DNA of 64,000 bases from Chloracidobacterium validum (GTDB lineage Bacteria; Acidobacteriota; Blastocatellia; Chloracidobacteriales; Chloracidobacteriaceae), in the NCBI RefSeq assembly GCF_018304825.1, contig NZ_CP072648.1, forward strand, positions 1,905,501-1,969,500. Reading direction: 5' to 3'. Shown one piece after another: positions 31,747 through 53,912 of the stretch. Each line of letters starts with the position of its first letter. Position 1 is the first letter of the stretch. The translations under genes were made by a program, and so were the position numbers. The notes below the pieces were generated by a model that did not search any database, was not told the DNA's origin, and worked only from the letters and a program-made list of their open reading frames with translations.

Positions 31747-32463
31747 TCAATACTCCCAGTCCTCGTGCCGAACCGGCAGGCGGTTGAGAGCTTGCTTGTG
31801 TTGCTTCCAAGTCGGCATAAACCGGTCCATCAGTGCGACAAACCGGCGGTTGTGCGTTGGCTCCAAAAGATGCACCATCTCGTGAACGACGATGTACTCC
31901 AGACACTCACGCGGCTTCTTGGCCAGGTCAGTGTTGAACCGCAAGTTGCGGGCCTCGGGGTTGCAACTCCCCCAGCGGGTCCGCATCCGCTGCACGAAAA
32001 ATCGCGCCACCTTCACATCCAGTTCTAGCTCCCACTTGGCGACTAACGGCGGCACGGCCAGCTTCACTTGCTCTCGATACCACGCCTCCAGGAGCGTTGC
32101 CCGCTTCGCCGCGTCGGTGCCGGGGCGGATGCCGAGTATCAGCTTGTTGTGCCGGATCTCAATGGCAGGCGGCTCGTCTCGCTCCACCACTGAGAGCAGG
32201 TATCGCCTGCCCCAGAGGTAGTGGCTCTCGCGGTCGATGTACTCGCGCTCCGGCTCACGCTCCTGGGCGCAGATTTTTGTCTGCTGCTGGCGAATCCAGG
32301 CGAGCTTTGAGATGGCAAACCCCCGGATTGCGTCCATGCTCATCCGCCGCGGCGCGGAGATGCTGACCCGGCCCGCCGGCGGGTGAACGCTGAGGTGGAG
32401 GTTCTTGATGTCCTTGAACACCACTTCGATGGTCAGTTCGCCCAGTTGGATCTGCTCGCCCAT
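31747..32463 (-). CDS. DUF45/YgjP-like zinc metallopeptidase in RM operon
   Basis: 238 residues. The catalytic motif HEMVHLLEPTHNRRF contains HExxH and a third candidate ligand, as in the DUF45 (YgjP, M48-like) family. An upstream FVQRMRTRWGSCNPEARNLR segment is also typical. These soluble proteins often sit next to type I restriction genes, as here: its ATG overlaps the stop of the hsdR tail at 32463, so it is likely translated with the RM operon. Its substrate and role in restriction are unknown. Confidence 0.88.
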   Translation of the reverse strand: MGEQIQLGELTIEVVFKDIKNLHLSVHPPAGRVSISAPRRMSMDAIRGFAISKLAWIRQQQTKICAQEREPEREYIDRESHYLWGRRYLLSVVERDEPPAIEIRHNKLILGIRPGTDAAKRATLLEAWYREQVKLAVPPLVAKWELELDVKVARFFVQRMRTRWGSCNPEARNLRFNTDLAKKPRECLEYIVVHEMVHLLEPTHNRRFVALMDRFMPTWKQHKQALNRLPVRHEDWEY

Positions 32464-32982
32464 CAGTATTCCGGCTGCGCCTTAATGATGAGAAACACCC
32501 GCTCGACCTCGTCCACGTCTTGCAGCACGCCGTAGAGTGCCGACTTGATGACCTGCTCGCGGGACTGCACACCCCGCCAGCCGTCCGGCCGCGCGTTCTT
32601 CACCGTGTCATCGATCCGCAGGGCCAGGTCCACGTTCTGCGCGAGGTTGTTGTAGAGGGCCCGCTTGCCCGGCGTGTCGAGCGTCTCCGGGGTGCCCTCG
32701 GCCTGGCCTCCCTCGACCTTCTTCACCAACTCGGCGATCCGCTTCAGGTACGCCTCATACTCAATGGCCTTGGACTTACGGGCGGCGATGATCTCGGCCA
32801 GCAACTTCGACATCGTCTCGTAGTACGCCGGGTCGTTCAGGTGATCCTTGATGATCTTGCTACGGACGTTGTTCTCGATGGTCTCGGCGATGGCGTCCTT
32901 GTTCCCCTTCATTACTCCCAGCTTCTTGGCAATAGCGTCGGCGATGCCGGTCTTCACGATTAGGTCGAGCAGTCCAATGCTG
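32463..32982 (-). pseudogene. hsdR: hsdR 3' portion, out of frame with main ORF
   Basis: The last 170 or so codons of the type I restriction subunit continue in a different frame from the main hsdR ORF. The shifted frame reads IEADEPRKISPFDSIGLLDL and then IADAIAKKLGVMKG...AETIENNVRSKII, the normal HsdR C-terminus. A GTG at 32957 could start this piece alone (164 residues), which would lack all catalytic motifs. The break at about 33020 looks like one inserted base (ACCTATTATCGAG where ACCTATATCGAG would keep frame). Confidence 0.8.
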
Positions 32983-35541
32983 TCAAACGGCGATATCTTC
33001 CGCGGCTCGTCGGCCTCGATAATAGGTATCGATCAGGTGCCGCATGTCGGCTTCGTAGGTCTTCAGGTCGAGCGTCTCACCGCTGGCCATACGGACCACC
33101 TCGCGGACCTTCAGGTAGTGATCCATCTGGCCCTTGATCCGGGCGACATCCGCCTCGCTGTAGCCGGCCGGTTCCATCTCGCCAGCCATGTTGGCGTAGG
33201 CCCGCACCAGCGCGACCACCGCCTTGTACAAGGCCGTCCGCCGCGGCTCGCGATCCTTCAGGTCGGTCGGCATCTCGGTGTTGCCGCAGAAGTAGTGGAT
33301 GTGTTCCAGTTCGCCCTTCGGCGGCTCGACCGGCTCGCACAACAGGGCCAGGGCCTCGATGGCGTTGTCCAGCCGCTCCTTGCCCCTGGTCAGGCGGTCT
33401 TGCAGCAGCACCTCGGGGTCGGGCCCGCCCGCGCTGTGGTCGAGTTCCGACGTGTACACCGCGATAGCCTTCTCGACCTTCTTGAACAGATCCTTGTAAT
33501 CCACGATGTAGCCGAAGTCCTTGTCCTCGCCGTCGAGCCGGTTCGTCCGGCAAATGGCCTGGAACAATCCGTGGTCCTGCATCGACTTGTCGATGTAGAG
33601 GTAAGTGCAGGATGGCGCGTCGAAGCCGGTCAGCAGCTTGTCCACGACGATGAGCAGCTTCATGTTCGCCGGCTCCCTGGCAAACAGTATCTTGGCCCGC
33701 TCCTCGTAGGTCTCCGTCTTCGTCTGGCCGGCGGCCGGCTTCACGTCCTTCAGCAACTCGGTGTAGGTGTTGAACACGAACTGCCTGTCCGTCTCCGTGT
33801 TCGCGCCGATCTCCTCCTTCGTCACGTCCTTCGCCTGCGGGTTGTACGATGTGACGACCGCGCACTTGCCCTTGAACGGCGTCTTCTGGAACAGCGTGAA
33901 GTACTTGCACGCCTCGTAGATGCTGCCCGCCACCAGGATGGCGTTGCCCCGCTCGTTCGACAGCCGCGGCTTGACGCTGAAGTCGAAGACGATGTCCGCG
34001 ACCACCTTTTCCATCCGCGAGCGGGAACTGAGCACCTGCTGCATCGTCCCCCACTTGGCCCGCAGTTCCGCCTTCTGCCAGTCATTCAGCCCCTTCGTCT
34101 TGGCCTCGAACCAGGCATCAATCCTGGCCTGAGAGCCGAGCCGCTGGTCAATGTCGCGGGCCTCGTACACCAGGTCCAGCACGACCGCGTCCTCGACCGC
34201 CTCGCTGAACTTGTACGTGTGGATGTACCCCCCGAAGACCTCCAGGCTCGTCTGTTTGTCCTTCTTCAAAAGCGGCGTGCCGGTGAAGCCGATGAACACC
34301 GCTTCGGGCATTATCGCCTTCATCACTCGATGCAGCTTGCCGCTCTGGGTGCGGTGGCACTCGTCCACGAACACGAACACCTCGCCGACCGTCGCGCTGG
34401 GCTGTTCCTTCAGGCCCTTCAGGAAGGCATCAATGTCATCCACGTCGCGCCGGCCGAACTTGTGAACCAGCGAACAGAGCAGCCGCGGCGTGGCCTGCCC
34501 AAGCTGTTTCAGCAGGTCGTGGCCGCTGCTGGTGCGGTGGATCGTCTCGCCCGCCGCCTCGAACACGTTCTTGATCTGCGCGTCGAGTTCGTCGCGGTCG
34601 GTGATGATCGCCACGCGGGCGTTCGGGTTGTTCTCCAGGATCCACTTGGCCAGCAGCACCATGACAATGCTCTTGCCACTCCCCTGCGTGTGCCAGATGA
34701 TGCCACCCTGCTTGCGCTTGACGAATTCCTGCGCCGCCTTGATGCCGAAGTACTGATGCACCCGCGGCAGCTTCTTCACCCCGCCGTCGAACAACACGAA
34801 GTCGTGCATCAGTTCCAGCAGCCGCCGCTTCTCGCATAGCTTGAGTAGGTACTTGTCCAGCTTGAACCGGCTGTTGTCGGCTTCGTCTTCCTTCCATTGC
34901 AGGAACATCTTCTCCGGCGTGCCGATGGTGCCGTAGCGTAGCCCCTCGGTGTTGTTGCCGGCAAAGACGATCTGCACCGTGCTGAAGAAACTAGCGTTGA
35001 ACTCCGGCTGCTGATTGGAGAGCAGTTGACGGATGCCGTCGCCCACGCTCACCGTGCTGCGTTTCAACTCGATGACGCCGATGGCGAGGCCGTTGACGTA
35101 CAGCACCAAGTCGGGCCGGCGTTCGAGCCCGCCCTTGAGCGTGACCTCCTCGACCAGAACGAAGTCGTTCGCCTCGGGGTTCTGCCAGTCGATCAGGTGG
35201 ACGGTCGCGGTCGGCTGACTCGCCTCGATCTTGACCGGCACGCCGTAACGGAGCAGCGAGTGGACGGCCTGGTTGTTCTGGTACAGGCTGCGGTTGGGGT
35301 TGTCGGCCTCGGTGCGGAGGCGGTGCAGCACCACGGCGATCTGCGGACCGGTCACGCCTCGCTTCGCCAGCCAGGCGGTCAGTAGACCCTCGTCGATGTT
35401 GCTGTTGCCGGGCCGATCGGCCCACGAGCCGAGGAAGCGATAGCCGAGTTCGTCGCGGAACAAAGCGATGACGCGATCCTGGGTCGCGCGTTCGGAGGGA
35501 AATGGGGAAGTGAGAATGGAGAATGGAGAATTAGTTGGCAT
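32983..35541 (-). CDS. hsdR: Type I restriction subunit HsdR, main ORF (frameshifted)
   Basis: 852 residues from the ATG at 35541, preceded by GGAGAACCCCAG. HsdR is the ATP-driven translocase and nuclease of a type I restriction complex. The nuclease core DLVLYVNGLAIGVIELKR is near residue 150, Walker A HTQGSGKSIV near 284, motif II VDECHR near 395 and GFTGTPLL near 425. The frame ends early after RHLIDTY because of a +1 shift; with it corrected the protein would be about 1025 residues, normal for the family. The first residues (NSPFSILTSPFPS) are encoded by the island's heptamer repeat. The truncated product keeps nuclease and motor but lacks the C-terminal assembly region. Confidence 0.88.
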   Translation of the reverse strand: MPTNSPFSILTSPFPSERATQDRVIALFRDELGYRFLGSWADRPGNSNIDEGLLTAWLAKRGVTGPQIAVVLHRLRTEADNPNRSLYQNNQAVHSLLRYGVPVKIEASQPTATVHLIDWQNPEANDFVLVEEVTLKGGLERRPDLVLYVNGLAIGVIELKRSTVSVGDGIRQLLSNQQPEFNASFFSTVQIVFAGNNTEGLRYGTIGTPEKMFLQWKEDEADNSRFKLDKYLLKLCEKRRLLELMHDFVLFDGGVKKLPRVHQYFGIKAAQEFVKRKQGGIIWHTQGSGKSIVMVLLAKWILENNPNARVAIITDRDELDAQIKNVFEAAGETIHRTSSGHDLLKQLGQATPRLLCSLVHKFGRRDVDDIDAFLKGLKEQPSATVGEVFVFVDECHRTQSGKLHRVMKAIMPEAVFIGFTGTPLLKKDKQTSLEVFGGYIHTYKFSEAVEDAVVLDLVYEARDIDQRLGSQARIDAWFEAKTKGLNDWQKAELRAKWGTMQQVLSSRSRMEKVVADIVFDFSVKPRLSNERGNAILVAGSIYEACKYFTLFQKTPFKGKCAVVTSYNPQAKDVTKEEIGANTETDRQFVFNTYTELLKDVKPAAGQTKTETYEERAKILFAREPANMKLLIVVDKLLTGFDAPSCTYLYIDKSMQDHGLFQAICRTNRLDGEDKDFGYIVDYKDLFKKVEKAIAVYTSELDHSAGGPDPEVLLQDRLTRGKERLDNAIEALALLCEPVEPPKGELEHIHYFCGNTEMPTDLKDREPRRTALYKAVVALVRAYANMAGEMEPAGYSEADVARIKGQMDHYLKVREVVRMASGETLDLKTYEADMRHLIDTYYRGRRAAEDIAV
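35505..35532. repeat. Heptamer-type repeat at hsdR start
   Basis: A purine-rich stretch on the plus strand (GAAGTGAGAATGGAGAATGG) of the family found at 36666-36763. It encodes the first residues of HsdR on the opposite strand. Confidence 0.7.
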
Positions 35542-35908
35542 CTGGGGTTCTCCGCGAGGCTTTGACAATGGCGACGAGCAGACGGAGGACTTCCTCGCTA
35601 TCGGCGGCGATGGACTCGTAAGCGGGGCGGTCGAGATACTCGGAAGCGTGAAGAAGTTCGAGCCAGTATAGCGTTTCGTTGGCTTCCTTTAAGGCAATGT
35701 CATCTAAGGCAATGCTCATCTTGGGGGTGAAGTCCGGCCTGCTCTCGGCATGTTCTGCCTCGCGCACCAGCGCCCCGATAGCCGTGCTGCTCCGCACGAC
35801 TTACTTAGAGATGACAAACTCGCGTTTCTCACTCTGCAGAAACCGCGCCAACTTTACCACCCGCACCGCCAAGGCAAACGACTTCACCCTCACCACATTA
35901 TCTTTCAT
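35531..35908 (-). pseudogene. Four-helix-bundle (23S IVP-like) protein, nonsense mutated
   Basis: The frame from ATG 35908 reads MKDNVVRVKSFALAVRVV through EFVISK, meets TAA at 35803-35801, then continues VVRSSTAIGALVREAEHAES to a stop at 35531. Relatives usually have Gln at that position (ISKQ..RS), so CAA to TAA is the likely change. A 15-base duplication also adds the residues DDIAL before LKEANETLYWLELL. The family is a small four-helix bundle related to proteins encoded in 23S rRNA intervening sequences, often carried next to mobile genes. The ATG lies in the heptamer repeat (GAGAATGAAAG). Its end overlaps the hsdR start by 11 bases. Confidence 0.8.
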
Positions 35909-35945
35909 TCTCCCTTCTCCCTTCTCAACTCGCCATTCTCCATTA
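35906..35945. repeat. Heptamer-type repeat before four-helix-bundle gene
   Basis: CATTCTCCCTTCTCCCTTCT followed by CATTCTCCATTATTCATTC on the plus strand. In the gene sense it reads as GGAGAAGGGAGAATG and provides both a ribosome-site-like GGAG and the ATG of the four-helix-bundle gene. Confidence 0.7.
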
Positions 35946-35953
35946 TTCATTCG

Positions 35954-36340
35954 CTACCAGATGCGGGTGATGCCGTAGGCGTCGAAAATCGTGTCGGCAC
36001 TTACCAAGGGAATGTTCTCGATTAACGATTGAGCGACCAGCATTCGGTCGAATGGGTCGCGGTGATGGAACGGCATCGTGGTCAGGCTGTCGAAATGATC
36101 GTCGCGGAAAGGCAGCCAGTCGAAGTAGGTGCGTAACATGTGCTGGCGGAAGAACCCGGCATACGGCCCGCCGATATCCAGCTTCTTCAGGCTGAGCTTG
36201 ATGGCCACTTCCCACGGCGAGACGAGGCTGACGAACTTCTGATTCGCCGGGTCGCAGATGGCCGCCTTCGCGGTCGCGCTGAGTTGCGAGTCGTCCCACC
36301 AGAACCACAGCACGGTATGGGTATCCAGCAGCAGCTTCAC
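35954..36340 (-). CDS. vapC: PIN-domain toxin (VapC-like)
   Basis: 128 residues. A PIN RNase fold with acidic residues in LLLDTHTVLWFW (Asp6), SPWEVAIK, DPFDRMLVAQ and LVSADTIFD. Toxins of this kind cleave RNA, often initiator tRNA or rRNA loops. The ATG overlaps the stop of the upstream antitoxin gene by four bases, the standard toxin-antitoxin arrangement. The pair is embedded in the type I RM operon between hsdS and hsdR. Full length, no defect visible. Confidence 0.92.
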   Translation of the reverse strand: MKLLLDTHTVLWFWWDDSQLSATAKAAICDPANQKFVSLVSPWEVAIKLSLKKLDIGGPYAGFFRQHMLRTYFDWLPFRDDHFDSLTTMPFHHRDPFDRMLVAQSLIENIPLVSADTIFDAYGITRIW

Positions 36341-36582
36341 TCCATGTACTCCGCGAAGTCTTCCAGCGGCGCGTCAAAGTCGGGGGACATCCAGAACGAG
36401 CGGTCCTTGGCGGTGCCGGGGACGCTCGGCCAGCTCGCGCGTTCCAACCGCGTGACCACGGCCACCGGCACGCCGTCCGTTGTGAGGATCAATTCTTCCC
36501 CACCGGCCATTCCGGCCAGGAGTTCGGGCAACTTGGCTGTGACGGCCGAGAGCGGAAAGGTGCGGGCCATGGTGTTGATCAT
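36337..36582 (-). CDS. Phd/YefM-like antitoxin
   Basis: 81 residues from the ATG at 36582, which has a strong ribosome site (CCAAGGAGAACGAC); the frame extends upstream to 36669 but without such a site. FPLSAVTAKLPELLAG followed by LILTTDGVPVAVVTRLE is typical of the Phd/YefM DNA-binding antitoxin fold. The acidic C-terminus (FDAPLEDFAEYME) would cover the toxin. It likely neutralises the PIN toxin with which it overlaps and represses its own operon. Confidence 0.88.
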   Translation of the reverse strand: MINTMARTFPLSAVTAKLPELLAGMAGGEELILTTDGVPVAVVTRLERASWPSVPGTAKDRSFWMSPDFDAPLEDFAEYME

Positions 36583-36665
36583 GTCGTTCTCCTTGGTGCG
36601 CCTGTGCAACGATTCCATTATACCAGTTGCGTCCTTCCGGTTATCAGTTCCACCATCACTGTCTT

Positions 36666-36763
36666 CCATTCTCCATTCTCACTTCTCCATTCTCACTTCT
36701 CACTTCTCCATTCTCACTTCTCACTTCTCCATTCTCACTTCTCACTTCTCCATTCTCACTTCT
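36666..36763. repeat. Array of 14 heptanucleotide repeats
   Basis: Exactly 98 bases made of 14 uninterrupted 7-mers of two types, CCATTCT and CACTTCT (plus strand), including three perfect 21-base super-units of one CCATTCT and two CACTTCT. It lies just after the hsdS stop and before the antitoxin gene; the last codons and stop of hsdS (LMEK, TGA) run into the repeat. Each AGAAGTGAGAATGG in the gene sense carries a TGA and an ATG. Confidence 0.95.
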
Positions 36764-38009
36764 CCATCAAGCGTATTCGCCCGGTGAGTAGTTCCTGCAT
36801 CATCCCCTGCTTGACCTGTCGGGCCTTGGCCAGCTTCGCCTCCAACGCCGCGATCTCCACGTCCATGTCCGACAGGATGGCAGCGATGGCTTGCTGCTCT
36901 TCCAACTTCGGGAACCTGCCTTGAATGGTTGCAAGTGCAGATGCGCTGATGTGAACAACGGCATCGCCTTGTCCAAGACTTGCTTTCTGCCGCGCAATCT
37001 CGGACGTGTTCAGGTAAAAGCCAAGAAACAGCGGATCAGCCTTCCCTGTTCGCAGAATGACGATGTCGCCGCCAGCATAGGCTTCGATGTCGTGAATGAA
37101 TGCGACGCACTTTCCGATCTCCTCTTTCGTCTCACCGGAACCAGCGAACAAGATGTCTCCACGTCTGAGCCGAGTAGCGGTCTGAGCGACCTCTCGGGAA
37201 ATCCACGAGAAGTACGTTGTTACGTAGTCGTTGTGCCGGGTGTAGATTTCGCCGTAGCGCACACAAGGCAGATCGCCGCTGAACGTCTGCGACTTCGTGA
37301 CACCGCTGCCTTTCAAAAAAGTGCCCAACTCTCCCAGTCGCTTCGTCTCCCACTCGCCGCTAAAGCCGGGGAGGCGTTTCTGGCCGGTGAGCAGTTGCTG
37401 CATCGCGCCGTGCTTGATCTGCCGCTTCTTGGCGACGAGTTGCTCCAGCGACTCGATTAGGGCATCCGCATCCGACAACGCCCCCGCAATCGCCTCCTGC
37501 TCCGCCAGCGTCGGCGGAAGGGGAAACGGAACACGATAGAGCGTTTCAGGGGGAAGCCGCTTCGTCCCATGTGTAGACTCTGTGGTGAGTCCACGCAGCT
37601 TCTGCGCGTGCCCGATTAACCAGTACAAGACGTAGTTGCTTGCATACCCGTCATGAACAACCAAGCCCTTCATGTCTTGGTTGAATGCGACCGGTAGTTC
37701 TGCACGAGCGACGGGAAAAGAATGGGCGAGGATCATTCCCCGAATGACCATGAGGATCGTCCCCGAAGGCATCAGCCGCGCACCCTCCGACACCGCAAGG
37801 TTGCTGATATGGTCAACCGAATCGCGAAGTCTTGAAACCTTCATGTCCTTGGGGCTTACCCAAGGAATGTCGCCTTGCCAGTACGCTGGATTTTTCATGC
37901 TTGGCGTGCCGCCACTGTACCACCGGCCGACTTCGCCCAGAGGAACGATCCGCCAGTCACTCGGTAGCGGACCGATGTCGAATACATAGTTTGGGGCCGC
38001 TACTTCCAT
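36756..38009 (-). CDS. hsdS: Type I restriction specificity subunit HsdS
   Basis: 417 residues with the two-fold architecture of HsdS: target-recognition domain 1 (about 15-150, PLGEVGRWYSGGTPSMKNPA), a conserved helical spacer (LAEQEAIAGALSDADALIES, then KHGAMQQLLTGQKRL), recognition domain 2 (about 220-350) and the second helix (LEEQQAIAAILSDMDVEIAA). The two domains define the halves of the DNA target. The ATG lies inside the end of the hsdM tail (10-base overlap), indicating coupling. The last residues and stop are formed by the heptamer repeat. The gene looks intact. Confidence 0.93.
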   Translation of the reverse strand: MEVAAPNYVFDIGPLPSDWRIVPLGEVGRWYSGGTPSMKNPAYWQGDIPWVSPKDMKVSRLRDSVDHISNLAVSEGARLMPSGTILMVIRGMILAHSFPVARAELPVAFNQDMKGLVVHDGYASNYVLYWLIGHAQKLRGLTTESTHGTKRLPPETLYRVPFPLPPTLAEQEAIAGALSDADALIESLEQLVAKKRQIKHGAMQQLLTGQKRLPGFSGEWETKRLGELGTFLKGSGVTKSQTFSGDLPCVRYGEIYTRHNDYVTTYFSWISREVAQTATRLRRGDILFAGSGETKEEIGKCVAFIHDIEAYAGGDIVILRTGKADPLFLGFYLNTSEIARQKASLGQGDAVVHISASALATIQGRFPKLEEQQAIAAILSDMDVEIAALEAKLAKARQVKQGMMQELLTGRIRLMEK

Positions 38010-38917
38010 GAGAAACCCATCCTTTCCAGATGACTATTCACTTTGGCTTCGAGTTCGGCCACTTGCAAGGTTAGTTGCGGTAATGTGCGTTCGTAGCGTT
38101 CAGCCAGTTCTTTCACCCGTTTGGTCAATTGCTGGCTGATGCGGTCCATTTCGCCGTGGATGCGGGCGTCGAGCGTGGCAAGCCATTTGTCCTCGACGAC
38201 GAGGGTCTTCACCTCGGCCTCGGTCAGCGTCGGGTACTTGGCATAGGCCTTGGCGTCGAGTTCCGCTTCGGCTTTTTTGAGTTGCTGCTTCAGGTCCGTC
38301 TCCTCGGCGTTGAGCGTGATCCATTGCTCCAAAACCGCGATCTCTTCCATTCTCAATTCTGCATTCTCCATTCTCCATTCGCGAAGCGTGGCGGAAACGG
38401 TCGCCTTGGTGATCTTCTCCAGTTCGCTGAACGCGCCGTCCTCGCCGCCGTGCTCCTCCTCCAACTCGGCCAGCTTCGCCGACACGCCTTCGAGCTTGGC
38501 CGTCAGATCGTCGAGGGCGGCTTGTTCCGTGGCGAAGTAGCGGGCGACAATCAACGCCTTCGGCACGAGGTCGCAGGTCCAGCCTTTGTCTTTTTCTTTG
38601 CCTTTCTTGTCTTTCTCAATCACTCGATAGGTCTGTACCTTCCAACCGTCGGCGGCGATCAGGTAGCAATCGTCCTGCATCGTCTCGGCCCAGTAATCCA
38701 TCAGTTGCTGGTAGATGTCGTAGGCGTCGATGAGCGGCTGGCCGTGGTAGTGGTTCAGCAGCCCCTCGGAGAGTTCGCCGATGATCGGCTTGGGGTGGCA
38801 ACCGGGAGTAAGAGCTTTTAGCGATCTTGCGGCCTTAGTGCGCCAGGCGGCGAAGTGGGCTTTCATCCCGGCGATGAAGGCAGCGAACTCGGGATGCTCG
38901 TAGATGGCCGACTTCAA
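38000..38917 (-). CDS. hsdM: HsdM C-terminal part, split from main ORF
   Basis: 305 residues from a TTG at 38917. It corresponds to the C-terminal 300 residues of long (about 800-residue) HsdM proteins, with AIYEHPEFAAFIAGM, DYWAETMQDDCYLIAADGW and a terminal coiled coil (AERYERTLPQLTLQVAELE). It contains no methyltransferase motif, so it would not be an enzyme alone. It is separated from the N-terminal part by the tandem duplication at 38939-38978. Residues REWRMENAELRMEE (38347-38381) are encoded by a heptamer repeat inside the gene. It overlaps the start of hsdS. Confidence 0.85.
   Translation of the reverse strand: MKSAIYEHPEFAAFIAGMKAHFAAWRTKAARSLKALTPGCHPKPIIGELSEGLLNHYHGQPLIDAYDIYQQLMDYWAETMQDDCYLIAADGWKVQTYRVIEKDKKGKEKDKGWTCDLVPKALIVARYFATEQAALDDLTAKLEGVSAKLAELEEEHGGEDGAFSELEKITKATVSATLREWRMENAELRMEEIAVLEQWITLNAEETDLKQQLKKAEAELDAKAYAKYPTLTEAEVKTLVVEDKWLATLDARIHGEMDRISQQLTKRVKELAERYERTLPQLTLQVAELEAKVNSHLERMGFSWK
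38347..38381. repeat. Heptamer-type repeat inside hsdM coding sequence
   Basis: Five consecutive 7-mers (CCATTCT, CAATTCT, GCATTCT, CCATTCT, CCATTCG) on the plus strand, read in frame on the minus strand as part of a helical linker of HsdM. Confidence 0.8.
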
Positions 38918-38937
38918 TTGAGAATGAGGAATGGCTA
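38916..38937. repeat. Heptamer-like repeat at hsdM break
   Basis: A degenerate member of the family (AATTGAGAATGAGGAATGGC on the plus strand) directly beside the 20-bp tandem duplication. Seven extra codons (LAIPHSQ) would come from it in a rejoined HsdM. Confidence 0.6.
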
Positions 38938-40425
38938 ATTGAAAATAGCCGGGGCGAATTGAAAATAGCCGGGGCGAAGCGGCTGAAATAGTGCATCGCG
39001 CAGTCCGGGGCAGACGGCCCAGTATGGGGCCAGGGCGTTCACGTCGCGGTCGGGAATACCGCCTTGCAGATGGCCGGCGATGTCCTGGATGTCCTTGGGC
39101 GTTTGGCTGTCGATGTAGCGCGGCAGGTTCAGGTTGAAGTCGTTCTTGGCGATCTCGTCGAAGGGGACCAGCCGGGAGAAGCGCGGTACCTCGATCTGCC
39201 GAGTGAACACGTCCACGATCTTGTGGATGTCCTGGTCGCGGAGGCGGTTCTTCGGCCCGTCCTTCATGAAGCCGCCGCTGGCGTCGATGAGGAAGACCGG
39301 TCGCTGATCCGTCGCCCCGGCCTTGTCTATGACGACGATGCAGGCGGGTATGCCGGTGCCGTAGAACAGGTTCGGCGGCAGACCGATGATGCCTTGGATG
39401 TACCCCTTGCGGACGAGCTTCTCACGGATGACGGCCTCGGCGTTGCCGCGAAACAGCACGCCGTGCGGTAGGATGCACGCGCCGCGGCCGGTGCTCTTGA
39501 GCGAGCGGACGATGTGCAGCAGGTAGGCGTAATCTCCCTGCTTGGCGGGCGGGATACCGAAAGCGGCGAAGCGATCGAACGGATCGTTGGCGGGGTCGAG
39601 GCCGGTGCTCCAACGTTTGTCGGAGAACGGCGGATTGGCGACGACGTAGTCGAAGGTCTTGAGGGCGTCGCCATCCTTGAACTTGGGATCGGTGAGCGTG
39701 TTGCCCTGCACGATGAGGGCGGTCGGCTGGTTGTGCAGGATCAGGTTCATGCGGGCCAGGCCGCTGGTGGTGGCGTCCTTCTCCTGGCCGTAGAGCGTGA
39801 CGGCAGTAGCAGCCTCGTCGCCGACCTTCAGCAGCAGCGATCCGGAGCCGCACGTCGGGTCATAGACGGTGGTGCTGGCACTCGTCTTGGCGGTGCGGAT
39901 GCCAAGAATCTGGGCCATGACGCGGCTGACCTCGGCCGGGGTGTAGAACTGCCCCTTGCTCTTACCGCTTTCGGTGGCGAAGTGCCGCATCAGGTACTCG
40001 TAGGCGTCGCCAAGGATGTCGTCGCCGTCGGCCCGGTTCTTCGAGAAGTCGAGGGCTTTGTTCTCGAAGATGGCAATGAGATTGGTCAGCCGCTCGACCA
40101 TCTCCTTGCCGCTGCCGAGCTTGGTGGCGTCGTTGAAGTCCGGCATGTCGGACAGCTTGTTGGCCGACGCCAGCGGGGCAATGATCTTCTTGTTGATTTG
40201 GTCGCCGATGTCGGCCCTGCCCTTGAGGGCGACCATGTCAGCGAAGGACGCGCCTTGGGGAATGGTGATCGGCGCGAACGGCTGGCCGGCGTACTTGTCG
40301 CTGACGTACTTGATGAACAGCAGCACGAGGACGTAATCCTTGTACTGGCTGGCGTCCATGCCGCCGCGGAGTTCGTCGCAGCTCGACCAGAGCGACGAGT
40401 AGAGTTCGGATTTCTTCAATGCCAT
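38935..40425 (-). CDS. hsdM: Type I DNA methyltransferase HsdM, N-terminal part
   Basis: 496 residues. It has the N-terminal helical domain (SLWSSCDELRGGMDASQYKD), SAM motif I (YDPTCGSGSLLLKVG near 190) and the catalytic NPPF motif (VANPPFSDKRW near 255) of an N6-adenine methyltransferase. The frame ends at TAG inside a tandem duplication, after RPGYFQFAPAIFN. The rest of the protein continues in another frame at 38000-38917. Joined, the gene would give 801 residues, the usual size of this HsdM group. The truncated form retains the catalytic core but may not assemble with HsdS. The ATG is three bases after the HTH gene stop. Confidence 0.92.
   Translation of the reverse strand: MALKKSELYSSLWSSCDELRGGMDASQYKDYVLVLLFIKYVSDKYAGQPFAPITIPQGASFADMVALKGRADIGDQINKKIIAPLASANKLSDMPDFNDATKLGSGKEMVERLTNLIAIFENKALDFSKNRADGDDILGDAYEYLMRHFATESGKSKGQFYTPAEVSRVMAQILGIRTAKTSASTTVYDPTCGSGSLLLKVGDEAATAVTLYGQEKDATTSGLARMNLILHNQPTALIVQGNTLTDPKFKDGDALKTFDYVVANPPFSDKRWSTGLDPANDPFDRFAAFGIPPAKQGDYAYLLHIVRSLKSTGRGACILPHGVLFRGNAEAVIREKLVRKGYIQGIIGLPPNLFYGTGIPACIVVIDKAGATDQRPVFLIDASGGFMKDGPKNRLRDQDIHKIVDVFTRQIEVPRFSRLVPFDEIAKNDFNLNLPRYIDSQTPKDIQDIAGHLQGGIPDRDVNALAPYWAVCPGLRDALFQPLRPGYFQFAPAIFN
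38939..38978. repeat. Perfect 20-bp tandem duplication in hsdM
   Basis: Two identical, adjacent copies (38939-38958 and 38959-38978) of TTGAAAATAGCCGGGGCGAA (plus strand). Two copies put a TAG in the hsdM frame; one copy leaves the frame open through to the C-terminal part. Confidence 0.97.
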
Positions 40426-45953: not shown

Positions 45954-47513
45954 ATGGCTGCCGCTCGCCCATCGGTTTCATTTCGGTCAGCGCCTCCGCT
46001 GGTCAGCCTGACGAAGGCGTTTCCGACGCCCTTCAAAAACGTCATTGCCACGGCGCGCACCTGCTACTCCGCCCGTGGGCTGGTCCGTGACGAGGACATC
46101 CAGGAAGGTTTCGAGCCGTTGGCCCGGAGCATTTACGAAGCCGGCCATCACACGACCTACCAGCATGCGCACTTTCAATTCGCGCTGGCCAATGTCTCGC
46201 GGCAGTTCATTTGGAGCTTTCTGCACGCCCACCCGTTTTACAACTCCGAGCAGGTGAGTCAGCGGTACGTCCCGGTCAAACCGGGGACGTACTTCATTCC
46301 GGCGCTTTCCGGCGAGGCATTAGCGGTTTACGAGGCCGCCATCGCCCAGCAGTTCAGCGCCTATGAAACGCTGATTGAGGCGCTCCGCCCCGTCGTAACG
46401 GCAGAGTACCGCAAGTTGTTTTCAAAGCATGACCCGGCACATCCGAAGGTGCGCAGCAAGATTACCAAGCGCGCGATGGAGGCGGCCCGCTACGTGCTGC
46501 CGGTGGCGACGTTTGCGTATCTTTACCATACGGTTTCGGGGATAACGCTGCTGCGCTACTGGCGGTTATGTGAGCAGCACGACGCGCCAGACGAAACGCG
46601 GGCGGTCGTGGGGGCGATGGTCGAGGCGCTCCTGGCGCATGATCCGCTCTACCAAACTGTCCTGGAAGCGCCATTGCCACCGGAAGCCATCGGCGAGTTC
46701 GCCTTTGCTGAGTGGGGCAATGGGGATGGACAGCGGCGCATCTTTCGCCGTGATTTTGACCAATCGCTTGGTGGCTACGTCTCGCGGCTGGTGGACTGGA
46801 AGGCGCGCAATGAACAGCTTCTGGCCGACAGTGCGCGCGAAGTGCTGGGATTGCCCATCACGGCGCTTTCTGACGACGACGCAATCCGGATGGTGCTTGA
46901 TCCGGCCCGAAACCGCTTGCTGGGCGAAAGTCTCAACCTGACTACCCATGCCAAGCTCACGCGGGCACTGGCACATCCGGGCTATACCTTTCGCAAGAAG
47001 TTGAGTCACACGGCGGATTCACAAGATCAGCGCCATCGTATGACGCCGGGTTCGCGTCCGCTCCTGACCGGGCACCTCGACACGGAGCCGGACTATGAAA
47101 CACCGGTCTTGGTTCAACTCGATGCACGGGTGGAACGGATGTACCGTGAAACGATGGCACGGACGTGGGAAGCGATTGACCGACTCAAGGCGCTGGGTGT
47201 TTCGGCGGCGGACGCAGCGTACCTTTTGCCCAATGCGGTCTCCATTCGCTTTACCGAGTCATCCGACCTGCTCAACTTGCACCACAAGCACCGCATGCGG
47301 CTGTGCTATTTGGCGCAGGAAGAAATCTGGCGGGCATCGGTCGAAGAAGCGCAGCAGATTCGAGCCATCAACCCCCGGATTGGGCGGTGGTTGCTGCCAC
47401 CCTGTGGCCAGCGGGCGGTGGCTGGCGCGCGTCCGATTTGCCCGGAAGGCGAGCGGTTTTGCGGCGTGCGGGTCTGGAAGTTGGATATTGACGACTACCG
47501 ACGCACCTTTTAG
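45954..47513 (+). CDS. thyX: ThyX-like FAD-dependent thymidylate synthase, long form
   Basis: 519 residues, about twice a normal ThyX (220-250). The first half has ThyX-like TARTCYSARG and YEAGHHTTYQHAHFQFAL, but the usual RHRx7S signature is replaced by LHAHPFYNSEQVSQRY. The second half contains LSHTADSQDQRHRM and later NLHHKHRMRLCYLAQEE, again ThyX-like. ThyX makes dTMP from dUMP with FAD and methylenetetrahydrofolate. The protein therefore looks like a duplicated or fused ThyX with altered motifs. Long forms of this kind are annotated as ThyX in several phyla as far as I recall. Activity is uncertain. Confidence 0.8.
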   Translation: MAAARPSVSFRSAPPLVSLTKAFPTPFKNVIATARTCYSARGLVRDEDIQEGFEPLARSIYEAGHHTTYQHAHFQFALANVSRQFIWSFLHAHPFYNSEQVSQRYVPVKPGTYFIPALSGEALAVYEAAIAQQFSAYETLIEALRPVVTAEYRKLFSKHDPAHPKVRSKITKRAMEAARYVLPVATFAYLYHTVSGITLLRYWRLCEQHDAPDETRAVVGAMVEALLAHDPLYQTVLEAPLPPEAIGEFAFAEWGNGDGQRRIFRRDFDQSLGGYVSRLVDWKARNEQLLADSAREVLGLPITALSDDDAIRMVLDPARNRLLGESLNLTTHAKLTRALAHPGYTFRKKLSHTADSQDQRHRMTPGSRPLLTGHLDTEPDYETPVLVQLDARVERMYRETMARTWEAIDRLKALGVSAADAAYLLPNAVSIRFTESSDLLNLHHKHRMRLCYLAQEEIWRASVEEAQQIRAINPRIGRWLLPPCGQRAVAGARPICPEGERFCGVRVWKLDIDDYRRTF

Positions 47514-47529: not shown

Positions 47530-47664
47530 GTGGCACAGGCATTCCTGCCTGTGAAAGTGGCACGGGCATTCCTGCCTGTGAAAGTGGCACGGGCATTCCT
47601 GCCTGTGAAAGTGACACGGGCATTCCTGCCTGTGAAAGTGACACGGGCATTCCTGCCTGTGAAA
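47530..47664. repeat. Five tandem 27-bp hairpin repeats
   Basis: Five units of exactly 27 bases. Unit 1 has the core CACAGGCATTCCTGCCTGTG, a perfect 8-bp stem with a TTCC loop; the others have CACGGGCA in the left arm, giving a single G-T pair. Units 1-3 begin GTGGCAC or nearly so and units 4-5 GTGACAC. The array lies just after thyX and before a convergent operon, so its transcript could form a row of hairpins. Confidence 0.95.
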
Positions 47665-47680
47665 GCAAGGCAGAATGATG

Positions 47681-52961: not shown

Positions 52962-53912
52962 ATGTCCGCACCCGTTGTCCTGGCGCCACCCCGCCGCTTG
53001 ACCCTTGAAGAGTTTCTTGCCTACGGTGAGCCTGACCGCCGCTATGAGCTTGTCCGAGGTATCCCGGTTGAGATGCCCGCCCCCTCCAAACGCCACCAGG
53101 CCATCGTCACGGCGCTGTTGACCCGCTTCAACTGGGTGATTGCCGAGCGCGACCTGCCCTACACCGCGACCGTGCTTGGGGTACAGACAGAAACCGATAC
53201 GGTGCGCATTCCCGACATCGTGGTATGCCACAAAGCGGTGGGCGATCCGCGGACGCCGGAAGCGGCGGATGGGGTGGTGCGGCTGGCGTTGGCGGCGGCG
53301 GTGCTGGTGGTGGAGGTGACGAGTACGAACTGGCGGGATGATTACGAGGCGAAGCGGACGGAGTATGGGCGGCGTGGGATTGGGGAGTACGTGATCGTGG
53401 ACACGCGGCAGGATCGGGTGGTGGTGTGTCGGCGGCCGGTTGTAGGGGAGGGGAGGTATGCGGAGGTGCTGACCTACGGCAGTGGGGAGGTAATGAGTCT
53501 GGAGGCGCTTGGTGGCGTGGCGATTGCGGTGGATGGAGTGCTGGGTGGGGAGACGGCGGATGAGGTGGCCCGGGCGGAGGTGGAGCGGCTGGCAGCGGAG
53601 CGGTCGGCGCGGCTCGATGCCGAAGCCCGCGCCGCAGCCGAACACCAGGCCAAGCTTGATGCCGAAACCCGCGCCGAAGCCGAACGCCAGGCCAAGCTTG
53701 ATGCCGAAGCCCGCGCCGCAGCCGAACGCCAAGCCAAGCTTGACGCCGAAGCCCGCGCCGCAGCCGAACGCCAGGCCAAACTTGACGCTGAAGCCCGGAT
53801 GCAAGCCGCCGAAGCCCGCGCTGAAGCCGAACGCCAGGCCCGCGCCGCCCTTGAGGCTGAACTGGCCCGTCTTCGCGCCCAACACCAAGCGTCACCGGGT
53901 ACAAAGTCCTGA
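52962..53912 (+). CDS. Uma2/DUF820-family nuclease-fold protein with coiled-coil tail
   Basis: 316 residues from ATG 52962, preceded by GGGAGAACTTTGCT. The N-terminal 200 residues match Uma2 (DUF820): RRLTLEEFLAYGEPDRRYEL, IPDIVVCHK and VLVVEVTSTNWRDDYEAKRT contain the PD-(D/E)xK-like core. Such genes are numerous in cyanobacteria, chloroflexi and acidobacteria; function is unproven. From about residue 215 a 14-residue repeat (AKLDAEARAAAERQ) occurs five times and forms an Ala/Arg/Glu-rich coiled coil. The frame continues upstream to 52809 without similarity. Confidence 0.88.
   Translation: MSAPVVLAPPRRLTLEEFLAYGEPDRRYELVRGIPVEMPAPSKRHQAIVTALLTRFNWVIAERDLPYTATVLGVQTETDTVRIPDIVVCHKAVGDPRTPEAADGVVRLALAAAVLVVEVTSTNWRDDYEAKRTEYGRRGIGEYVIVDTRQDRVVVCRRPVVGEGRYAEVLTYGSGEVMSLEALGGVAIAVDGVLGGETADEVARAEVERLAAERSARLDAEARAAAEHQAKLDAETRAEAERQAKLDAEARAAAERQAKLDAEARAAAERQAKLDAEARMQAAEARAEAERQARAALEAELARLRAQHQASPGTKS
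53607..53840 (+). repeat. 42-bp coding tandem repeat in Uma2-like gene
   Basis: Units of 42 bases encode a 14-residue coiled-coil motif (consensus AKLDAEARAAAERQ). Four exact-length units span about 53607-53774, then a fifth diverges. Some adjacent units differ by only a few bases, so unit number could vary. Confidence 0.85.

Follow-up and report, generated by a model that had tools for sequence, protein, structure and literature searches.

A perfect 20-bp tandem duplication breaks hsdM in a probably decaying type I restriction-modification cassette of Chloracidobacterium validum

Methylation by a type I restriction-modification system requires only HsdM and HsdS. In non-typeable Haemophilus influenzae, hsdM is turned ON and OFF by simple sequence repeats, and such repeats occur in 2% of hsdM genes (PMC7394358), while longer tandem repeats at promoters vary in copy number in Mycobacterium tuberculosis populations (PMC12817950). 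We found no precedent in the open-access literature for a tandem duplication that switches hsdM. A different class of relevant loci consists of pseudogenes generated by slippage through short tandem duplications, in which a perfect adjacent copy of a complex unit lies out of frame between short microhomologies. Here we describe an hsdM gene in a 64,000-nucleotide stretch of the C. validum genome (the window; G000:C1:1905501-1969500, from a genome of 3,659,143 bp in two contigs) that can be compared with both. As in H. influenzae, the reading frame of this gene is set by repeat number; there, however, the repeat is a simple sequence and its variation has been shown, whereas here there are two complex 20-bp copies, the partner genes are broken, and the case is known from one genome sequence. 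With slippage-made pseudogenes the locus shares the arrangement of the repeat as well as the presence of further inactivating mutations, and we found nothing that sets the hsdM case apart from them.

The gene belongs to a cassette on the minus strand in which hsdR, hsdM and hsdS, the gene set of a type I system, occur together. The N-terminal part of hsdM (38935..40425, 496 aa) carries the HsdM_N and N6_Mtase domains (Pfam PF02384, E = 1.8e-99, and PF12161) and matches positions 1-488 of the 810-position PADLOC profile PDLC03027. The C-terminal part (38000..38917), delineated by tblastn of 80 homologs, matches positions 497-810 of the same profile and lies out of the frame of the N-terminal part in the two-copy state. 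Together the two parts thus cover the long (about 800-aa) HsdM group described by this profile, from which the gene differs in being split by the duplication. Downstream, hsdS (36756..38009, 417 aa; PF01420, E = 7.2e-24) is intact and has full-length homologs (L023, L091). It is followed by an intact pair of a VapB-like antitoxin and a PIN-domain toxin (35954..36582; PF01850, E = 4.7e-11, with VapB/DUF2281 matches), which separates hsdS from a gene for a four-helix-bundle protein (35531..35908; TIGR02436, E = 1e-20).

At the break in hsdM, two perfect copies of TTCGCCCCGGCTATTTTCAA plus 2 bases stand directly adjacent (38937..38978, minus strand). On the coding strand the first unit begins at 38978, and the second is followed by TTAGCC. 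Tandem Repeats Finder (TRF) reports a period of 20 with 2.3 copies at 38933-38978, and the exact match at a lag of 20 runs for 22 bases (38937-38978), so that the two adjacent 20-base copies of the original prediction are borne out. At a single lag, so long a perfect run would arise by chance somewhere in the window with a probability of about 7e-9; summed over lags of 10-60, only about 4e-7 such runs are expected per window, and chance is therefore excluded as the origin of the duplication. The 20-bp unit has no other occurrence in the genome with up to 3 mismatches allowed. We likewise detected no hypermutable multi-copy simple sequence tract at the junction, which holds just a complex 20-mer in two copies. 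The prediction had also placed the unit next to a heptamer repeat. The nearest clear heptamer array (38346-38380) lies about 560 bp away, and what stands of that claim is a weak period-7 signal at the junction itself (by shuffling, p = 0.003 for raw matches and 0.026 for the array score).

The duplicated unit lies inside the reading frame and its length is not a multiple of three (20 mod 3 = 2). As predicted, the two-copy frame ends after PAIFN, as ...RPGYFQFAPAIFN-TAG, at a stop codon that is reached through the frame shift (38935..38937, minus strand), leaving the open reading frame of 496 aa at 38935-40425. The one-copy frame instead reads ...RPGYFQLAIPHSQLKSAIYEHPEF... and stays open to 38000, restoring the anticipated full length of 801 aa. 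To determine which state is ancestral, we compared eighty loci, drawn from many phyla, at which the C-terminal part is encoded. In nearly all of these about 80 loci, the sequence RPGYxxLAVxKxxIKxxIYEHPEF crosses the junction in a single frame, and the homologs that read through the site do so at about 60-78% identity. Because of this, and because one 810-position profile spans both parts, the one-copy hsdM is ancestral and the two-copy state is derived. Neither the two-copy state nor any other tandem repeat is present at the junction in these about 80 loci; short repeats occur elsewhere in hsdM in six of them. Comparing copy number in related genomes, a check suggested in the original prediction, thus gave no two-copy homolog and leaves a switch unsupported. 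In the congeners, the HsdM proteins are only distant (44% identity or less) or absent, so that the same locus was not found there.

Several homologs vary at or near the site. Small in-frame insertions occur at the junction in L034, L046, L058, L068, L082, L084 and, in a different manner, L078; those in L046, L058 and L082 carry a related peptide (PRPQ-GE---VR) exactly where hsdM is duplicated here, an observation suggesting that the hairpin at this site accepts repeat insertions. The sole homolog with a frame break at the junction itself is L098, from a metagenome-assembled genome, in which one base is deleted at the same RPGY codons. We considered this deletion as a shared switch and rejected it, taking it as a coincidence or a sequencing error. 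Breaks or stops elsewhere in hsdM are found in L026, L028, L042, L077 and L092.

Two further genes of the cassette are broken. The N-terminal part of hsdR (32983..35568, minus strand; 861 aa as listed, with the start probably at ATG 35541) matches TIGR00348 (E = 1e-153) and positions 7-847 of the 1034 of PDLC03044. A +1 frame break at about 33020..33024 (minus strand, TATTATC) interrupts it where the homologous protein goes on as ..DTY-IEADEPRK..: the frame that ends at 32983 diverges after DTY, while the other frame carries on as IEADEPRKISPFDS. In the closest relative, the intact L102, a single uninterrupted frame aligns with both parts (78% identity for the N-terminal part and 70% for the C-terminal part at 32463..33020, minus strand), and the frameshift takes roughly the last 185 residues out of the reading frame. 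The four-helix-bundle gene is broken by a TAA at 35801-35803, where its operon relatives L025, L028 and L098 encode Gln; it also contains a 15-bp in-frame tandem duplication (TRF, 35690-35721) that has no counterpart in these relatives.

To evaluate how unusual such breaks are, we aligned the proteins of two congeners to the 184 kb around the cassette. The 128 ORF matches, over 94,895 bases, contain no genuine frame break: two splits were flagged, of which one (window -34429..-33376) is a shadow ORF antisense to an intact ruvA-like frame and the other arises where an ORF overlaps a neighbouring gene out of frame. Because the background thus gives no genuine break in about 95 kb, the occurrence of three broken genes in about 8 kb is particular to the hsd cassette. 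The same clean background led us to reject the idea that assembly error accounts for all the breaks. A second type I locus, on the other replicon (L144 9500-12300, G000 C2), is wrecked as well: the N-terminal half of its hsdM is missing, and a fragment of hsdS abuts an ORF resembling a REP-associated transposase. Gene order at 19000-41000 of the window is unlike that of the congeners: the flanking segments (7-18 kb and 42-48 kb) are close together in G001 and G005, and the 22-31 kb segment corresponds in the congeners to another place roughly 90 kb away. Elsewhere in the window, a 27-bp unit, GTGGCACGGGCATTCCTGCCTGTGAAA, is repeated five times with 98% matches at 47530-47665, just past a gene ending at 47513, and a 42-bp tandem repeat of 4.4 copies at 53612-53797 is apparently coding (Ala/Glu-rich).

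We consider it highly probable that a slippage duplication has inactivated hsdM within a decaying type I cassette, and that the repeat is not a maintained phase switch. In the one-copy hsdM, the hexamers TTCGCC and TTAGCC agree at 5 of 6 positions and are offset from each other by exactly 20 bases, a spacing that would be the expected footprint of slippage. Replication slippage between these near-identical hexamers would have duplicated 20 bp of the gene, and the resulting frame shift would cut HsdM off after its catalytic core. The duplication would then be one among several inactivating mutations in an hsdM-hsdS-vapBC-four-helix bundle-hsdR cassette that is probably decaying in this strain, and the cassette does show several independent lesions relative to intact relatives (hsdM +20, hsdR +1 and the TAA in the four-helix-bundle gene). 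From the sequence we infer a slippage origin, a loss of function and an effectively fixed state of the hsdM break. Two points weigh against decay. The catalytic motif NPPF of HsdM looks undamaged, as do the family matches of HsdR and HsdS, so that any decay would be recent. The two hsdM copies are also still identical, and because of this identity a return to the one-copy state is in principle mechanically feasible. The single-base insertion in hsdR could itself be an assembly error, because the published account of Chloracidobacterium strain BV2-C from the Rupite hot springs, presumably the strain studied here, mentions no polishing of the assembly, which was made from PacBio Sequel reads with Canu 1.8 and Circlator (PMC8245765); the clean background makes such an error less likely.

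It is unlikely that hsdM is instead phase-variable, with slippage between the 20-bp copies gaining or losing a unit and so toggling full-length HsdM and methylation. The parts of the original prediction that such a toggle requires do hold, in that the unit breaks the frame, the copies are identical and the one-copy frame is full length; moreover, ON-OFF switching of hsdM by repeat number is demonstrated in H. influenzae and variation of longer repeats at promoters in M. tuberculosis (PMC7394358, PMC12817950). The switching itself does not find support, as the repeat comprises just two copies of its complex unit, two-copy homologs number 0 of about 80, and the lesions in the other broken genes of the cassette lie outside repeats and cannot toggle. 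A restored hsdM would, to judge from these genes, give at most a methylase without restriction, and we regard it as rather more doubtful still that the duplication serves as a slow reversible switch of such a restriction-less methylase (HsdM + HsdS) in this free-living thermophilic phototroph.

Also very improbable is a split but working methylase, in which the 496-aa part acts alone or with a 305-aa C-terminal part made by re-initiation. The length of the N-terminal part is close to that of classic HsdM proteins (499 aa for PacII M and 520 aa for EcoR124I M). When the homolog L021 is modelled with AlphaFold (alignment of 28 sequences, mean pLDDT 78, pTM 0.51), the catalytic core lies within residues 1-443 and superimposes on PacII M with Z = 34.3 and an rmsd of 3.2 over 418 aligned residues. 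The junction is predicted to fall in a beta-hairpin at residues 480-490, between this core and a C-terminal module made up of helices plus a long coiled coil, at the site that takes in-frame insertions in three homologs. According to this model, the truncated HsdM is predicted to retain the catalytic core and to lose the conserved C-terminal module. That module, however, is conserved within one chain in about 80 homologs, and the first start codon of the C-terminal part past the stop, TTG 38917, has no Shine-Dalgarno-like sequence ahead of it. Least probable of all is a sequencing or assembly artefact, which a long-read assembly with no described polishing might suggest, as long-read errors do not usually take the form of a perfect 20-bp duplication and no spurious frame breaks appear across about 95 kb of conserved coding sequence.

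The heptamer arrays of the cassette follow a pattern of their own. An array of the GAATGGA family lies within the C-terminal part of hsdM (38346..38380), one with a 21-bp higher-order unit at the hsdS stop (36656..36764), and two flank the four-helix-bundle gene, upstream (35904..35954) and, in inverted orientation, downstream (35501..35531). All 4 clusters of GAGAATG-type heptamer words in 184 kb are inside the hsd cassette, including the inverted pair around the four-helix-bundle gene. In a sample of the phylum, a period-7 array adjoins the gene in 21 of 30 four-helix-bundle loci vs 0 of 30 PIN-gene control loci from the same genome sample, and 8-mers common to both flanks as inverted repeats occur in 13 of the 30, as well as in the window's own copy. 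The heptamer unit is specific to each locus (L171-L198), and some arrays are octameric. Inverted heptamer pairs are described in Xanthomonas (PMC4692102), where the terms searched in that paper gave no mention of a four-helix-bundle gene, and an intervening sequence of 23S rRNA that carries an S23 ORF is known in Coxiella (PMC4990558). The gene and its flanking arrays possibly form an undescribed element resembling an intervening sequence. In the loop of the HsdM C-terminal module that corresponds to 38346-38380, the peptides VESGEL, MENAEL and NENGEL, heptamer-derived or look-alike, appear in unrelated phyla (L021, L024, L025, L028, L032, L044, L062).

Together, these observations suggest that hsdM, hsdR and the four-helix-bundle gene are best treated as probable pseudogenes in this strain, and we predict no active type I system from this locus. 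As a decay event, the duplication would have little importance past annotation. Toggling, if true, would mean that methylases can also switch frame through a two-copy repeat with a long unit, and in bacteria that are not host-adapted. Heptamer arrays are a common repeat class that is little explained, and for this reason the four-helix-bundle genes bracketed by them may matter more than the decay of hsdM.
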